Of a DNA stretch of 52,082 nt, positions 1,813-44,273 are shown piece by piece. A program made the position numbers and the translations under genes. The notes under the pieces are model-generated. The model saw only the letters and a list, made by a program, of their open reading frames with translations, made no database searches and was not told where the DNA came from. Origin of the DNA: Ruminococcus sp. (GTDB taxonomy: Bacteria > Bacillota > Clostridia > Oscillospirales > Ruminococcaceae). The stretch is taken from positions 1 through 52,082 of the forward strand of contig JAFQHO010000070.1 of NCBI GenBank assembly GCA_017397925.1, in the 5' to 3' direction. Position 1 is the first letter of the stretch. Each line of letters opens with the position of its first letter.

Positions 1813-2251
1813 ACAGAATTCTGTAGCAAAACAGAACGATGCGAAAAATGGTCATTCGCAGAATGAACCGCAGAGAACTGAAACCAAAGCAGGTTCGGTT
1901 ATATCAATTATATTAATTGCGGCTTTGGCAGCAATACTTCTTGGAACTGTAATCTACAGTCTTGACAGAAGAAATACAATGTACAGTAAGGTAGCGGCTC
2001 TCAATAATGAGCTGACATATGCCGAAGCTGAAAATGTCAGACTGCAGGCGGAGCTTGAAAGTAAGATATCTGCAAAAAACGTCGAGGATTATGCAGAAAA
2101 TGTACTGGGAATGAAAAAAATAGACTCCTCCCAGATTAAGTACATTGAGATTCAGACCGATGACGTAGTTAGTATTCCTGAACAGGATGACGGTCTTATT
2201 GCTAAGATAAAAAAATTTTTTGACCGCTGTGTGGAATATTTCAGAGGGTAG
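1805..2251 (+). CDS. ftsL: FtsL-like division protein
   Basis: 148 residues from ATG 1805, chosen over an in-frame GTG at 1793 because AAAGGAG (1787-1793) sits at ribosome-binding distance from the ATG but would overlap the GTG. A polar N-terminus is followed by one transmembrane helix (about residues 32-54) and an extracytoplasmic coiled coil (SKVAALNNELTYAEAENVRL onward). This plan and its place between rsmH and a class B PBP identify FtsL, which bridges DivIB/DivIC and the septal synthase. FtsL sequences diverge, so the call leans on topology and context. Confidence 0.85.
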   Translation: MAEQNSVAKQNDAKNGHSQNEPQRTETKAGSVISIILIAALAAILLGTVIYSLDRRNTMYSKVAALNNELTYAEAENVRLQAELESKISAKNVEDYAENVLGMKKIDSSQIKYIEIQTDDVVSIPEQDDGLIAKIKKFFDRCVEYFRG

Positions 2252-2280
2252 TATCATATAATATAATAGAGAATAAAAAT

Positions 2281-2560
2281 ATCTCGGACTGCCTGTATAA
2301 AAACTGACGGCACAAAAAATAAAATCGCCGCAGTTGGGAAATACCGTAAAGTAGAACGTACGCTGTTTCCATAAAAGTAGAACACGGAGACACAGCGAGT
2401 GATCGGAATAAAGGATTGCTCTCCCCGCATAAATATAAAAAACAGGGGAGAGCCTATCCTTCGCTTGAGGGACAACAAGCGAAAACCTTTTACATCGTGT
2501 GTCAAGAGCAAAACATCGTAAAAGATGTATTAGGCAGGGTTGCTCATTAACCCTGCCTTA
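2281..2560 (+). ncRNA. Multi-hairpin structured RNA between ftsL and PBP gene
   Basis: This 327-nt gap has no plausible gene but folds strongly. Stems seen: H1 2302-2311/2327-2335 (9 bp with one bulged A); H2 2361-2366/2392-2397; H3 2411-2416/2456-2461 continuing into a perfect 9-bp 2418-2426/2445-2453; H4 2461-2467/2476-2482; H5 2491-2496/2524-2529 or the competing 2488-2493/2518-2523. A terminator-like hairpin 2533-2541/2549-2557 is followed by a weak T-run. CTGCCT at 2289-2294 can pair with AGGCAG at 2532-2537, closing the whole domain and competing with the terminator. AAAGTAGAAC is repeated at 2348 and 2374. I recognise no known RNA class (not T-box, RNase P, tmRNA, SRP or 6S). It could be a cis-acting attenuator for the PBP gene or a separate small RNA. 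Confidence 0.65.
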
Positions 2561-2566
2561 TTTATT
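2533..2566 (+). terminator. Terminator-like hairpin before PBP gene
   Basis: A 9-bp stem GGCAGGGTT/AACCCTGCC with a 7-nt loop is followed by TTATTTATT. The T-run is interrupted, so termination may be partial or conditional. It ends about 33 nt before the PBP ribosome-binding site. Confidence 0.6.
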
Positions 2567-2598: not shown

Positions 2599-5004
2599 AT
2601 GAACAATAAGAATCTGCCTTCAAAATCAATGAAATTCAGAGCGAAGATTACTATGACAGGTGTATTTCTTCTGCTCTTTTCGGGAGTTGCTGCAAATTTT
2701 TTCAACATCTCCGTCATAAAAAACAAGGAATATCAGGCTATGGCGAATGAGCAGCATTTCGGCTCAATTCCCATATCTGCACACCGCGGCTCTATTTACG
2801 ATTCAAAGGGTACTGCCCTTGCAAAAAGTGCCACGGTATATAAAGTGTTCCTCGACCCCAAGCAGTTCCGTGAGGATATGGAATCCTTACAGAAACGTAT
2901 TGACAAAAGGGCTGAGGATATCAAAAATGGTACATATAAGCCTCAGATAGAAACAACTACCGATGCTGAGGGCAATGAGGTTACACAGGTAATCGAGGAT
3001 GCACTCCCTCAGTCAGCGGAGGCATTCCGCCTTGAGGCTATAACACTTCTTACAACTAAGCTCGGAATAACTGCCGAAAAAGTAGAAAGGGCTATGATTG
3101 CCGAAAACCGCTACAGTGTTTTACAGGAACAGGTTGAAAAGCCTGTTGCTGATGAAGTCCTTGACTTTTTCAACAAATATAATCTGGTCTGCATTAATGT
3201 GGAGGAGGATACAAAGCGTTATTACCCCCAGAATGAGCTTGCAGCGGCAGTTATAGGCTTTACAGCCTCTGACGGCTATGGTCTTTACGGTGTTGAATCC
3301 TACTACGATGACTACCTTTCGGGTACGGACGGAAGAACCATTTCCGCTAAGGACTCCCACGGAAACGAGCTGCCTTACCGCTATTCAAAGACATATCCTG
3401 CACAGAACGGAAATGACATATACCTTACCCTTGATATGGATATACAGTATATCCTTGAAAAGTATCTTGAGGAAATGTCAACGGAATTTATGGTCAAAAA
3501 CAGAAGCTGTGCTATTCTTATGAATGCCAAGACAGGCGCTATATATGGTATGGCACAGTATCCAAGCTATGACCTTAACAACCCTTATGACGTTGTTGAC
3601 CCGAAGGTTATTGAAGAGCTGAAAACTCTTAACGATGAGGAATACAGCAAAGTACAGGGTGCAGCCCGTGAAAAACAGTGGAGAAACAAGTGCTTAACTG
3701 AGCGATATGAGCCTGGTTCTGTATTCAAGGTTATTACAAGTGCAGCGGCTTTTGAAGAAAATCTTATTGATATAGTTAATGACCGCTTTTATTGTCAGGG
3801 TTATCTTAAACTTGACGGTATGGAACAGCCTGTAAATTGTCATCTTACAAGTGGTCACGATTCACAGAAATATCAGGTTGCATTAACCAATTCCTGTAAC
3901 CCTGCATTTATGGAAATCGGAGCAAGAGTAGGCAAGGAGAAGTTCCTTTACTACTTTGATGCTTTCGGCTTCAATGAACCTCTTGGAATTGACCTTCCTG
4001 CGGAAGTAAAAGGAGACCAGAAAAATCCAGAAGAATTCACCCATGTTGACCTTGCACTTTCATCTATCGGGCAGTGTGAGACTATTACACCTCTCCAGAT
4101 GATAACCTCATATTGTGCCGTTATAAATGGCGGTTATCTGCTGCAGCCCTATGTAGTGGATAAGGCTGTTGACGAGGACGGAAACGTGGTAATGAAAAAT
4201 GAGCGTACTGTTAAAAGACAGGTTGTATCGGAGGAAACATCTGCTATAATGCGTAATGCTCTCCATACTGTAGCGACAGACGGAAACATCAATATCAAGG
4301 GCTATGCCATAGGCGGTAAATCCGGAACATCCCAGCGCCTTTCCGAAACTAAGGGCGGTCAGACACTGGTACAGGGACAGCAAGAAATTGCCAGCGAACA
4401 GGAGTACGGCTCATCATACTGCTGTTTTGCCCCTGCTGATGACCCCGAAGTTATACTCCTTGTTCTTGCTGATATGCCCGATAAGGAAAATAACGGCGGT
4501 AACTACTACGGAAGTAAGGTTGCTGTTCCTACAGCAAGAAATATACTTACAGACGTTCTGCCATATCTTGGTATAAGTCCCCAGTATACCGATAAGGAGC
4601 TTGCAGAGCTTGATATCAAGGTTCCTCTCCTTGAGGGAAGCGTTGAGGAGGCTAAGGCTACTATTGACGGACTTGGTGCTGTTGCTGAGGTAATAGGCGA
4701 AGGCTCTACAGTTGTGGCACAGTCGCCTGTTACAGGCTCATCAATTGCAAAGGGCGGTACGGTATACCTTTACACAGACCCGAGCCATACTGTTGACTAT
4801 ACGGAAGTTCCTGATTTAGTGGGACTTTCGCCGCAGATTGCCAACGATTCAATTGTTTATATGGATCTGAACTATGTGGCAACAGGCGCATCAATTCATC
4901 GTGACGGCGCTGTAGTAACAAGTCAGTCAATACAGCCTGGTGAAAAGGTGGCAAAGGGTACAACAATTATTCTTGAATTCAGCGTAGCCAGCGGCGGCGA
5001 TTGA
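2599..5004 (+). CDS. Class B penicillin-binding protein with PASTA domains (SpoVD/FtsI-type transpeptidase)
   Basis: 801 residues from ATG 2599, preferred over GTG 2578 because AAAGGA (2587-2592) precedes the ATG. A short cytoplasmic tail, a transmembrane helix (about residues 18-38) and the PBP dimer region (AHRGSIYDSKG) precede the transpeptidase. Catalytic motifs are all present: SVFK with Ser374 and Lys377, SCN at 432-434, KSG at 574-576. Two PASTA repeats fill the last 140 residues. The family makes septal or spore-cortex peptidoglycan cross-links together with the SEDS partner encoded at 7579. Lone in its cluster, it may serve as the vegetative FtsI as well as SpoVD; sequence alone cannot decide. 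Confidence 0.95.
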   Translation: MNNKNLPSKSMKFRAKITMTGVFLLLFSGVAANFFNISVIKNKEYQAMANEQHFGSIPISAHRGSIYDSKGTALAKSATVYKVFLDPKQFREDMESLQKRIDKRAEDIKNGTYKPQIETTTDAEGNEVTQVIEDALPQSAEAFRLEAITLLTTKLGITAEKVERAMIAENRYSVLQEQVEKPVADEVLDFFNKYNLVCINVEEDTKRYYPQNELAAAVIGFTASDGYGLYGVESYYDDYLSGTDGRTISAKDSHGNELPYRYSKTYPAQNGNDIYLTLDMDIQYILEKYLEEMSTEFMVKNRSCAILMNAKTGAIYGMAQYPSYDLNNPYDVVDPKVIEELKTLNDEEYSKVQGAAREKQWRNKCLTERYEPGSVFKVITSAAAFEENLIDIVNDRFYCQGYLKLDGMEQPVNCHLTSGHDSQKYQVALTNSCNPAFMEIGARVGKEKFLYYFDAFGFNEPLGIDLPAEVKGDQKNPEEFTHVDLALSSIGQCETITPLQMITSYCAVINGGYLLQPYVVDKAVDEDGNVVMKNERTVKRQVVSEETSAIMRNALHTVATDGNINIKGYAIGGKSGTSQRLSETKGGQTLVQGQQEIASEQEYGSSYCCFAPADDPEVILLVLADMPDKENNGGNYYGSKVAVPTARNILTDVLPYLGISPQYTDKELAELDIKVPLLEGSVEEAKATIDGLGAVAEVIGEGSTVVAQSPVTGSSIAKGGTVYLYTDPSHTVDYTEVPDLVGLSPQIANDSIVYMDLNYVATGASIHRDGAVVTSQSIQPGEKVAKGTTIILEFSVASGGD

Positions 5005-7578: not shown

Positions 7579-8838
7579 ATGTCTGCTTCGGCAAAAACAG
7601 TAAAAAAGACAAATAAGAAAAGCAAGACAGGCGGTCTTTTCAGAACGCTTTTCGGCGGCGGAAGAAACGGCGATATGAGCCTTTCGTTCTTTGCCTATGT
7701 TATGATACTTCTTGTTGTGGGACTGGTTATGATGTCCTCTGCAAGCTATGCCTGGGCATACAGCGAATTCGGCGACGGACTTTATTACGCGAAAAATCAG
7801 GCTTTAAACGCAGGCGTCGGCTTTGTGGCTATGATATTCTTTATGAAGTTCGATTACCACAATTTCAAACAGCTTAAACTGCCCCTGTTTAAAAAATTCA
7901 ATATTGCAGGAATATTTTATGTTGCTGTTGCAATCCTCCTCATTGCCGTTCTTCTTATCGGTAACACCGAGGGCGGTGAAATGGGTGCTAAGCGCTGGAT
8001 TGACATCGGCCCTTTTAACCTACAGCCTTCCGAGGTTGCAAAGCTTGCTCTTATTGTTTTCTTTGCCTACAGTATGGAAAAGGACGGAGCAAAAATGAAT
8101 ACCTTTAAGACAGGTATTATGAAATATGCCGTCCTTCTTGGTGTATATGTCCTGCTTATCGCCCTTGAAAAGCATATTTCCGGTATTATCCTTATCGGTA
8201 CAATTGCTATTGCTATGATACTCTGCGGCGGAGCGAACAAACGTCAGTTTGTAGTGCTTGGTACAATAGCTGTATCAGCCGCTGTAGGCTTCATCTTCTG
8301 GCAGTATAACACCCCCGGAAGTTATGTTCAGGCTCGTATTAATGCCTGGCTTCACCCCTTTGAGGATGTTTTAGGGGATTCCTGGCAGACTGCCAATTCC
8401 CTTATTGCTATTGGTTCGGGAGGACTTTTTGGTCTTGGACTTGGTAACTCCCGACAAAAATATCTCTATCTTCCCGAAACGAAAAATGACTTTGTATTCC
8501 CTATTGTATGCGAGGAAATCGGCTTTGTTGGCGCATTGGCAATTATTATTGTATTCTTCCTTCTTGTGATTGAGGGTTATTCCATAGCAGTACGCTGCAA
8601 AGATCGCTTTGGTATGCTTCTTGCCGTTGGTATAACCACGCAGATAGGCATACAGACAGTTTTAAATCTTGCCGTTGTAAGCAATCTGATACCGAATACA
8701 GGTATCAGCCTGCCCTTTTTCAGCTACGGCGGAACGGCGTTGATTATGCAGCTGGTGGAAATGGGAATTATGCTGAATATTTCACAGCACAGATACTATC
8801 CTGCCGAAAAGAAAACGGCAGAAACAAATAAGGAGTAA
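7579..8838 (+). CDS. ftsW: SEDS-family glycosyltransferase FtsW/SpoVE
   Basis: 419 residues, multi-pass membrane protein of the SEDS family with a basic N-terminal tail (about 30 residues) and roughly ten helices. GAKRWIDIGPFNLQPSE and the C-terminal NTGISLPFFSYGG are diagnostic. SEDS proteins polymerise lipid II into glycan strands together with a class B PBP, here probably the product of 2599-5004. In Bacillus this cluster position is held by spoVE, so SpoVE is an equally good name. The ribosome-binding site is AGGGGGGAG. murG begins 2 bp after the stop. Confidence 0.95.
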   Translation: MSASAKTVKKTNKKSKTGGLFRTLFGGGRNGDMSLSFFAYVMILLVVGLVMMSSASYAWAYSEFGDGLYYAKNQALNAGVGFVAMIFFMKFDYHNFKQLKLPLFKKFNIAGIFYVAVAILLIAVLLIGNTEGGEMGAKRWIDIGPFNLQPSEVAKLALIVFFAYSMEKDGAKMNTFKTGIMKYAVLLGVYVLLIALEKHISGIILIGTIAIAMILCGGANKRQFVVLGTIAVSAAVGFIFWQYNTPGSYVQARINAWLHPFEDVLGDSWQTANSLIAIGSGGLFGLGLGNSRQKYLYLPETKNDFVFPIVCEEIGFVGALAIIIVFFLLVIEGYSIAVRCKDRFGMLLAVGITTQIGIQTVLNLAVVSNLIPNTGISLPFFSYGGTALIMQLVEMGIMLNISQHRYYPAEKKTAETNKE

Positions 8839-24215: not shown

Positions 24216-24224
24216 AAATCAGTA

Positions 24225-24324
24225 CCTTATCAAGAGTGGCTGAGGAAACAGGTCCTGTGAAGCCCGGCAACCTGCCATGTATCGGCAACGGTGCCAAATC
24301 CTGCGGTATATCCGGAAGATGAGG
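24225..24324 (+). promoter_or_regulatory. SAM-I (S-box) riboswitch
   Basis: The conserved S-box core is present: CTTATCAAGAGTGGCTGAGG at the 5' side, then GAAGCCCGGCAACCTG, GGTGCCAAATCCTGC and the 3' GATGAGG. P1 pairs CCTTATC (24225-24231) with GATGAGG (24318-24324). Binding of S-adenosylmethionine stabilises the aptamer and favours the terminator at 24348-24372, shutting off metK. This is feedback control of SAM synthesis. Confidence 0.97.
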
Positions 24325-24347
24325 AGCTGTGAATAAGTTCAATTCAG

Positions 24348-41540: not shown

Positions 41541-41615
41541 GCGCCTGTAGCTCAGTGGATAGAGCAGTAGCCTCCGACGCTACGCGCGCTGGTTCGATCC
41601 CAGTCAGGCGTACCA
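41541..41615 (+). tRNA. tRNA-Arg (anticodon CCG)
   Basis: Acceptor GCGCCTG pairs with CAGGCGT, D stem GCTC/GAGC, anticodon stem GTAGC/GCTAC with loop CTCCGAC (anticodon CCG, reads CGG), T arm GCTGG/CCAGT with TTCGATC. CCA is encoded. Confidence 0.97.
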
Positions 41616-43834: not shown

Positions 43835-43907
43835 GTTGGGGTAGCGGGATTTGAACCCACGCATGACAGAGTCAAAGTCTGTTGCCTTACCGCTTGGCCA
43901 TACCCCA
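43833..43907 (-). tRNA. tRNA-Gln (anticodon TTG)
   Basis: Acceptor TGGGGTA/TACCCCA, anticodon stem ACAGA/TCTGT with loop CTTTGAC, encoded CCA. Last gene of the tRNA operon. Confidence 0.97.
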
Positions 43908-43933
43908 GTAAGACTATTGCTTGTTATACAGAA

Positions 43934-43960
43934 AAAAGTCCGAATTATCGGACTTTTCTG
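43934..43960 (-). terminator. Terminator inside the tRNA operon
   Basis: Between tRNA-Cys and tRNA-Gln, minus-strand stem GTCCGA/TCGGAC with a 4-nt loop is followed by six T. It could reduce tRNA-Gln read-through or be a processing site. Confidence 0.7.
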
Positions 43961-43964
43961 AAAG

Positions 43965-44035
43965 AGGCGCCACCCAGATTTGAACTGGGGATCAGGGTGT
44001 TGCAGACCCACGCCTTACCACTTGGCTATAGCGCC
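43965..44035 (-). tRNA. tRNA-Cys (anticodon GCA)
   Basis: Acceptor GGCGCTA/TGGCGCC, anticodon loop CTGCAAC, T arm CCCAG/CTGGG. Discriminator U, as expected for tRNA-Cys. CCA is not encoded, unlike the other tRNAs here. Confidence 0.96.
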
Positions 44036-44040
44036 GTAAT

Positions 44041-44116
44041 TGGAGCGGATTACGAGGCTCGAACTCGCTACCTCCACCTTGGCAAGGTGGCGCTCTACCA
44101 GATGAGCTAAATCCGC
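44041..44116 (-). tRNA. tRNA-Gly (anticodon GCC)
   Basis: Acceptor GCGGATT, anticodon stem CCACC/GGTGG with loop TTGCCAA, T loop TTCGAGC, encoded CCA. Confidence 0.97.
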
Positions 44117-44118
44117 AA

Positions 44119-44195
44119 TGGCGACCCGGATGAGGCTCGAACTCACGACCTCTAGCGTGACAGGCTAGCGTTCTAACCAACTGAACTACCGGGCC
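44119..44195 (-). tRNA. tRNA-Asp (anticodon GTC)
   Basis: Acceptor GGCCCGG/CCGGGTC, anticodon stem CTAGC/GCTAG with loop CTGTCAC, discriminator G and encoded CCA. Only 2 bp separate it from tRNA-Gly. Confidence 0.97.
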
Positions 44196-44197
44196 AG

Positions 44198-44273
44198 TGG
44201 TGGGGACTACAGGGCTCGAACCTGTGACCCTCTGCTTGTAAGGCAGATGCTCTCCCAGCTGAGCTAAACCCCC
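44198..44273 (-). tRNA. tRNA-Val (anticodon TAC)
   Basis: Acceptor GGGGGTT/AGTCCCC, anticodon stem TCTGC/GCAGA with loop CTTACAA, encoded CCA. First gene of the operon. Confidence 0.97.

Follow-up and report, generated by a model that had tools for sequence, protein, structure and literature searches.

Sequence evidence for a conserved structured RNA between ftsL and a spoVD-type PBP gene in Ruminococcus

The ftsL-PBP gap and the RNA within it

The DNA analysed here (the window) is a stretch of 52,082 nucleotides from Ruminococcus sp., in which ftsL, whose stop codon ends at 2251, is followed by a PBP gene after a gap of 347 bases with no gene inside. Transpeptidase, PBP_dimer and PASTA domains were matched in the PBP, and its best NCBIfam model was spoVD_pbp (TIGR02214) at 506 bits, which is below the cut-off of 688. 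The RNA of the gap was predicted to fold with a minimum free energy (MFE) of -96.6 kcal/mol (z = -7.5), a value equalled by none of 200 shuffles. The features of the region are as follows.

2231..2251, + strand: frozen 3' end of ftsL, GTG GAA TAT TTC AGA GGG TAG, from codon entropy and base counts
2234-2240, + strand: -35-like box GAATATT, inside the end of ftsL
2255..2262, + strand: -10-like box CATATAAT, 14 nt after GAATATT, with 7 of 8 positions agreeing with CATACAHT
2286..2294, + strand: conserved 5' element GGACTGCCT, a candidate antiterminator strand, from alignments of relatives; complementary to 2532-2537
2302..2335, + strand: hairpin P1, arms at about 2302-2311 and 2327-2335, from the MFE fold; 31 compensatory branches over 8 pairs
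about 2337..2370, + strand: extra hairpin of the window copy, from the MFE fold; a gap in 19 of the 20 relatives first aligned
2377..2411, + strand: near-invariant core GTAGAACACGGAGACACAGCGAGTGATCGGAATA, from DNA matches and alignment, unpaired in the predicted fold; GUAGAACACGGA, a segment in this conserved core, is a candidate ligand-contact stretch
2389..2503, + strand: closing helix P2, GACAC (2389-2393) with GTGTC (2499-2503), enclosing P3 and P4
2411..2461, + strand: P3, a long variable hairpin with double changes in all 12 pairs of its long helix
2460..2483, + strand: hairpin P4, an inverted repeat with 10 compensatory branches
2512..2527, + strand: hairpin P5, from the MFE fold, with 96.7% of cells formed
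2532..2566, + strand: intrinsic terminator, a G+C-rich hairpin (2532-2558) followed by a U-rich tract
2599..5004, + strand: class B PBP with PASTA domains, start ATG with AAAGGA upstream; alternative start at 2578

The RNA in the window had no match at the gathering score in Rfam 15, nor did the Rfam T-box model match it; with E allowed up to 5, five unrelated families appeared below threshold, the best at E 0.66. Loci from 20 relatives gave no match at the gathering score either, and in six further relatives a search with E allowed up to 5 yielded three sub-threshold matches to unrelated families. Known RNA classes are ruled out by these scans of the window and its relatives. The preliminary description had called this an unrecognised multi-stem RNA in a gap free of genes, and that view has held: no confident known class was found, and the stems are conserved. 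Taken with the comparative evidence below, this gives strong support from sequence to the view that window positions 2281-2560 encode a conserved structured RNA of a new family outside Rfam.

Among open PubMed Central papers we found none on such an RNA; supplements could list it as an unnamed motif. The main texts of PMC11109978, PMC8632094 and PMC6429828 contain none of the terms Ruminococc, ftsL, mraW, penicillin and division, and in PMC8040213 Ruminococc, ftsL, cell division, penicillin and mraW are absent, with one unrelated Clostridiales passage. The RNA, which occurs in rumen and gut Ruminococcus bacteria, is previously uncatalogued.

Among the 21 sequences first aligned, only one besides the window (L041) has letters in the region of the extra hairpin. 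GTAGAAC, with which the invariant core starts, occurs twice in the window, at 2351 within the extra hairpin and at 2377, and the first copy may be a partial duplication of the core start.

Distribution and covariation of the RNA

A covariance model was built from 26 relatives with the window copy left out, and it recovered the window copy at 60.9 bits (E 8.7e-16). It matched 112 of the 120 genomes of the window's genus, with one strong match per genome. In another set, all 7 same-genus genomes were matched, along with 9 of 340 genomes from other genera of the family; these nine matches (E 3e-4 to 0.01, 17.7-23.1 bits) are near the number expected by chance, in a search with strict filters, which lose weak matches. 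Run without filters on 28 other-genus loci, the model reached at best 11.6 bits and the RNA was not detected. In a DNA search with E allowed up to 0.01, 41 of 60 same-genus genomes gave matches, almost always at the near-invariant stretch GTAGAACACGGAGATACAGCGGGTGATCGGAAT, the main match site in the genus, and in a few cases elsewhere. The 19 best matches from other genomes of the genus that were made into loci are 85-97% identical over 34-54 nt of the core. The exact core pattern occurs in 68 contig stretches among 84,980 species genomes, 64 of them titled Ruminococcus (many R. flavefaciens) and four titled only at a higher rank. As judged by these searches, the RNA is a feature of the genus, or has diverged beyond recognition elsewhere.

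Its genomic position is equally constant. Matches to RsmH, FtsL and the PBP are present in 116 of 119 loci (four loci being second copies from genomes already counted); the remaining three are a locus cut by the contig end, which has the RNA, and two unrelated weak matches. Allowing up to 9 mismatches, the core pattern is found in 111 of 112 distinct ftsL-PBP gaps, the exception (L156) having been found by the covariance model. In the loci read, rsmH and ftsL are followed by a SpoVD-type PBP gene, consistent with the earlier proposal that the RNA stands before a division/sporulation PBP, and across the related Ruminococcus gaps covered by the covariance model the stems are kept along with the gene order. 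We also considered a mobile or multi-copy RNA and rejected it, the window's own genome having a single match and the exact core pattern being absent from viral contigs. With about 110 distinct members, the family is ready to be entered in an RNA database.

For the structural alignment, 98 loci were chosen and placed on the model, near-duplicates and fragments being left out; 26 of the 98 had built it. In this alignment, which is fitted to the structure, standard pairs fill 91.1% of pair cells, against 76.5% after shuffling, and 33 of 40 pairs show double changes. In P2 99.2% of cells are paired, the middle pair being U-A in 89 sequences and C-G in seven. When the changes are mapped on a tree built from the flanking proteins, the 40 pairs of the core have 275 both-sided compensatory branch changes, whereas the same pairs slid by 1-3 columns have 13-30, a comparison in which the structure-fitted alignment favours the unslid count. 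P5, scored on an alignment that was not fitted to structure, has 6 compensatory branches, and its slid controls have 0-1. Column-by-column covariation on a plain alignment was weak, with the best pair in P1 at E about 2, probably because the variable hairpin is misaligned there, and the model-based alignment was used instead. On the sequences compared, the covariation of the core helices is overwhelming, and a chance fold is ruled out as far as sequence can tell by the 275 compensatory branches.

The promoter-like block, the terminator and their pairing

The last six codons of ftsL are frozen even at synonymous sites. Their codon entropy across 112 sequences is 0-0.43 bits, whereas the amino acids concerned have 0.86-1.99 bits when the last 60 codons are taken together, and the seventh-last codon is at background; base counts give TAG as the stop codon of 100 of the 112. 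Further up, low-entropy neighbours occur at -25 (Ile) and -26 (Asn), and no second low-entropy run of six is present among the 40 ftsL codons covered. The sigma-E consensus is KMATATT at -35 and CATACAHT at -10, about 14-15 nt apart. The window agrees with it at 7/7 and 7/8 positions, respectively. Across the genus the full -35 box is present in 109 of 112 sequences, and the best -10-like box reaches only 5/8 in 89 of 112 (mean best score 5.23 of 8, against 4.36 in shuffled sequences).

A similar block was observed in other genera. GAATA[TC] is present at the end of ftsL in 42 of the 67 other-genus loci in which that gene was called (28 GAATAT, 14 GAATAC) and is absent from the other 25. [CA]ATAnnAT follows at 14-15 nt in 21 of these 42 loci and within 10-24 nt in 23, against a mean of 1.1 and a maximum of 4 in the shuffled control; TAnnAT alone follows in 25 of the 42, against 5.7 in shuffles. 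The end of ftsL and the AT-rich box after it resemble a promoter, possibly of the sigma-E type, and from this resemblance we infer promoter activity. We also weighed reading the frozen block as a sigma-A or a sigma-H promoter. Because the window contains a TTCAGA-16-TATAAT site and TAnnAT is enriched in other genera, the block may also be read by sigma-A.

A sigE model matched all 24 genomes searched (15 of the genus). Nine of the genomes score over its cut-off of 348.6 bits, and the window's genome, at 344.5 bits, falls just short of it. Other sigma factors are matched by this model too, and it gave matches in 10 of 14 control genomes. The spo0A model scored over its cut-off in 23 of the 24. 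Bacillus spoVD is listed among sigma-E-controlled genes in passages of PMC517825. The Ruminococcus locus is like it in gene type and in a motif of similar form to the sigma-E consensus; it differs in that those passages name no RNA domain or terminator and in that the -10 box of most genus members departs from the consensus.

Terminators of a single sequence type are found in 105 of the 112 gaps, at a median of 50 nt before the called PBP start, so that most gaps would hardly accommodate another promoter. About one in ten of the 105 terminators lies at least 134 nt from the called start, which leaves room for one. Two loci have unusually long distances to the called start, 1537 nt (L062) and 607 nt (L143). 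Taking away seven gaps without the terminator pattern and two overlong ones leaves 103 of the 112, and 90 of these passed a 97% identity filter, of which 84 are on the tree and 85 have a recognisable 5' element. In the 84 sequences every cell of the terminator stem is paired, which is partly built in because the rows were chosen by the terminator pattern. The stem hardly varies in sequence and so yields little covariation, with one compensatory branch. Constancy of this degree seems unusual in an ordinary terminator and would be in keeping with a further pairing role.

Of the 67 other-genus loci, 63 have a usable gap, and since these gaps reach to the start of the PBP alignment they may take in the first PBP codons. 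A terminator-like hairpin is present in 50 of the 63, against 19.6 expected from shuffles. The gaps of other genera are thus like those of Ruminococcus in position, in this hairpin and in the promoter-like motif (23 of 42), and they differ in that the RNA model is unmatched in the 28 loci. A terminator before the PBP gene therefore looks like a trait of the family to which the genus added the RNA domain, and, by the same comparison, the promoter-like block and the terminator look older than the domain. In most of the genera sampled, the division/cell-wall cluster is broken by a terminator-like hairpin, and one genus has put an elaborate RNA there. In the long gaps of L164 and L166 the terminator type is shared and the core is not detectable. 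By eye, other-genus terminators are often of the type AGUUAAG...CUUAGCUUUCUU (L163-L191, L260-L299).

Within the genus, six of the eight members without a model match could be located (L300-L305). Inspected by eye, four of them (L301, L303, L304 and L305) lack the core and keep a terminator. L300 retains a hairpin together with what is left of a decayed RNA, so that five of the six have a terminator-like hairpin, and in L302 the RNA and the terminator are both gone. In L301 the 5' GACUGCCC and a GGGCAG-type terminator remain although the core is gone. The best score of the unfiltered model in these loci was 16.5 bits, for a match in L301 that lies outside the gap. The four members that have the terminator without the core suggest that the RNA domain can be lost.

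The preliminary description had also proposed a switch, in which CTGCCT at 2289-2294 would pair with AGGCAG at 2532-2537 and so block the terminator, whose 5' arm it shares. An inverted-repeat search showed the two segments to be exactly complementary, and both they and the terminator lie where they had been placed. In predicted folds of truncated transcripts, in which the terminator 3' arm is absent, 81 of 85 sequences have the 5' element paired with the 5' arm, a near register included; it is the arm's best partner in 82 of 85, and the pairing gains a median of 8.2 kcal/mol. In the full-length RNA the 5' element is paired with the arm in 3 of 85, the terminator being favoured by a median of 9.8 kcal/mol. 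About 51 of 85 still pair when the 5' segments are shuffled, under a looser test in which any part of the segment may pair. Folding favours the switch geometry, with its candidate closing helix, above a high shuffled background.

Selection on the pairing of these two segments did not show in the sequences compared. The register first proposed (CUGCCY with AGGCRG) shows no compensatory change among the 84 sequences on the tree and is broken by G-to-A in seven of them. When the register is shifted by 5 nt in the 3' direction (CUGCCY with GGGGCAG), one compensatory change is seen, from G-C to A-U, confined to a single clade (L049, L068, L120, L123, L151 and L152), along with one uncompensated A-C row (L056). 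As modelled, a two-state switch is plausible.

Proposed function and alternatives

We propose that the RNA is a regulatory leader of the spoVD-type PBP gene, in which promoter, RNA domain and terminator together attenuate the PBP, and we give this reading a probability of a little under 0.6. The transcript would start slightly upstream of GGACUGCC, from a promoter that overlaps the 3' end of ftsL. The RNA would fold into P1, the unpaired conserved core, a multibranched P2-P3-P4 unit and P5, and the domain would then meet the intrinsic terminator directly before the ribosome-binding site of the PBP gene. When the CUGCC of the 5' element holds the terminator 5' arm, the domain would be closed and transcription would read through into the PBP and later genes; when it does not, transcription would stop. 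A signal acting on the conserved core, be it a small molecule, an ion or a protein, would set the balance between the two. Conditional termination and any ligand are what we infer from this arrangement, by which the RNA probably sets how often the PBP gene is read.

A more specific and tentative form of this proposal is a riboswitch-like class in the middle of dcw, in which a sporulation-type promoter in ftsL would feed an RNA sensor that gates the SpoVD-type PBP and later genes by antitermination. If this were true, Ruminococcus would have an RNA checkpoint for septal/cortex peptidoglycan synthesis whose input might be a cell-wall precursor or a second messenger, and a sensor of this kind would offer a handle on the control of the SpoVD-type PBP in a genus that keeps spo0A and sigE-like genes. 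In terminator-controlled ON riboswitches the helix that closes the aptamer competes with the terminator. The Ruminococcus RNA is, as riboswitches are, a conserved structured domain upstream of a gene, and it is like the ON type in its conserved core, in a closing strand that overlaps the terminator 5' arm and in the gene immediately downstream. Unlike them, it has no Rfam match, its closing helix lacks covariation support and its ligand is hypothetical.

The nearest published parallel we found is UpsM, on the basis of passages in PMC5089854, which describe it as both an sRNA and the 5' leader (268 nt) of the dcw cluster of Rhodobacter sphaeroides, with a Rho-independent terminator at its end; a refolding of this terminator was proposed there, and it is not conserved in the UpsM family. 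The likeness, drawn from those descriptions and not from sequence, lies in a structured dcw leader with a terminator and a proposed refolding. The two differ in that UpsM is alphaproteobacterial and stands before mraZ, the first dcw gene, whereas the Ruminococcus RNA lies between ftsL and the PBP gene. UpsM, with a read-through of about 1 in 100 (passages in PMC5089854), is also the precedent for a different reading, in which the locus is a stand-alone sRNA gene whose terminated product of about 280 nt acts in trans, the PBP gene being reached by leaky read-through. An RNA bracketed by a promoter-like block and a terminator, with a near-invariant unpaired core, would suit such a gene. A trans-acting RNA would have no need to stand beside the PBP gene, as the one strong match per genome does in the loci read, and the terminator is kept where the core has been lost; we consider this reading unlikely, if a serious competitor.

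Less probable still is that the RNA is a structured 3' UTR that both ends and protects the mraZ-rsmH-ftsL mRNA, with the PBP gene served by constitutive read-through. The terminator-like hairpins in 50 of 63 gaps of genera without the domain are what it would predict, but the promoter-like block, the conserved 5' element and the conserved unpaired core would be left unexplained.

That the gap holds a short coding region, or that its fold is due to chance, has a negligible probability: the window gap does hold ORFs of 40-44 aa (+ strand) and 85 aa (- strand, 2254-2511), and the longest - strand ORFs of 90 relatives are slightly longer than in dinucleotide shuffles (mean 40.6 aa against 35.6 aa), but those on the + strand are no longer than in shuffles (30.1 aa against 31.7 aa), the - strand ORFs share no single frame with respect to the core (13, 20 and 23 in the three frames, with another 32 not covering it), and the 275 compensatory branches speak for an RNA. 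A small protein in the gap was rejected on the same ORF comparison, no conserved ORF being found among the 90 relatives.

Several further elements were noted elsewhere in the window. A SEDS-like ORF, identified by eye, lies at 7579-8838, and a SAM riboswitch (RF00162) at 24224-24325 with 87.2 bits. A tRNA is present at 41541-41612 on the + strand and a group of five tRNAs at 43836-44273 on the - strand. Upstream of mraZ, the repeat GGTGAAAA occurs at 145, 186, 196 and 335, and these copies are presumably MraZ binding boxes.
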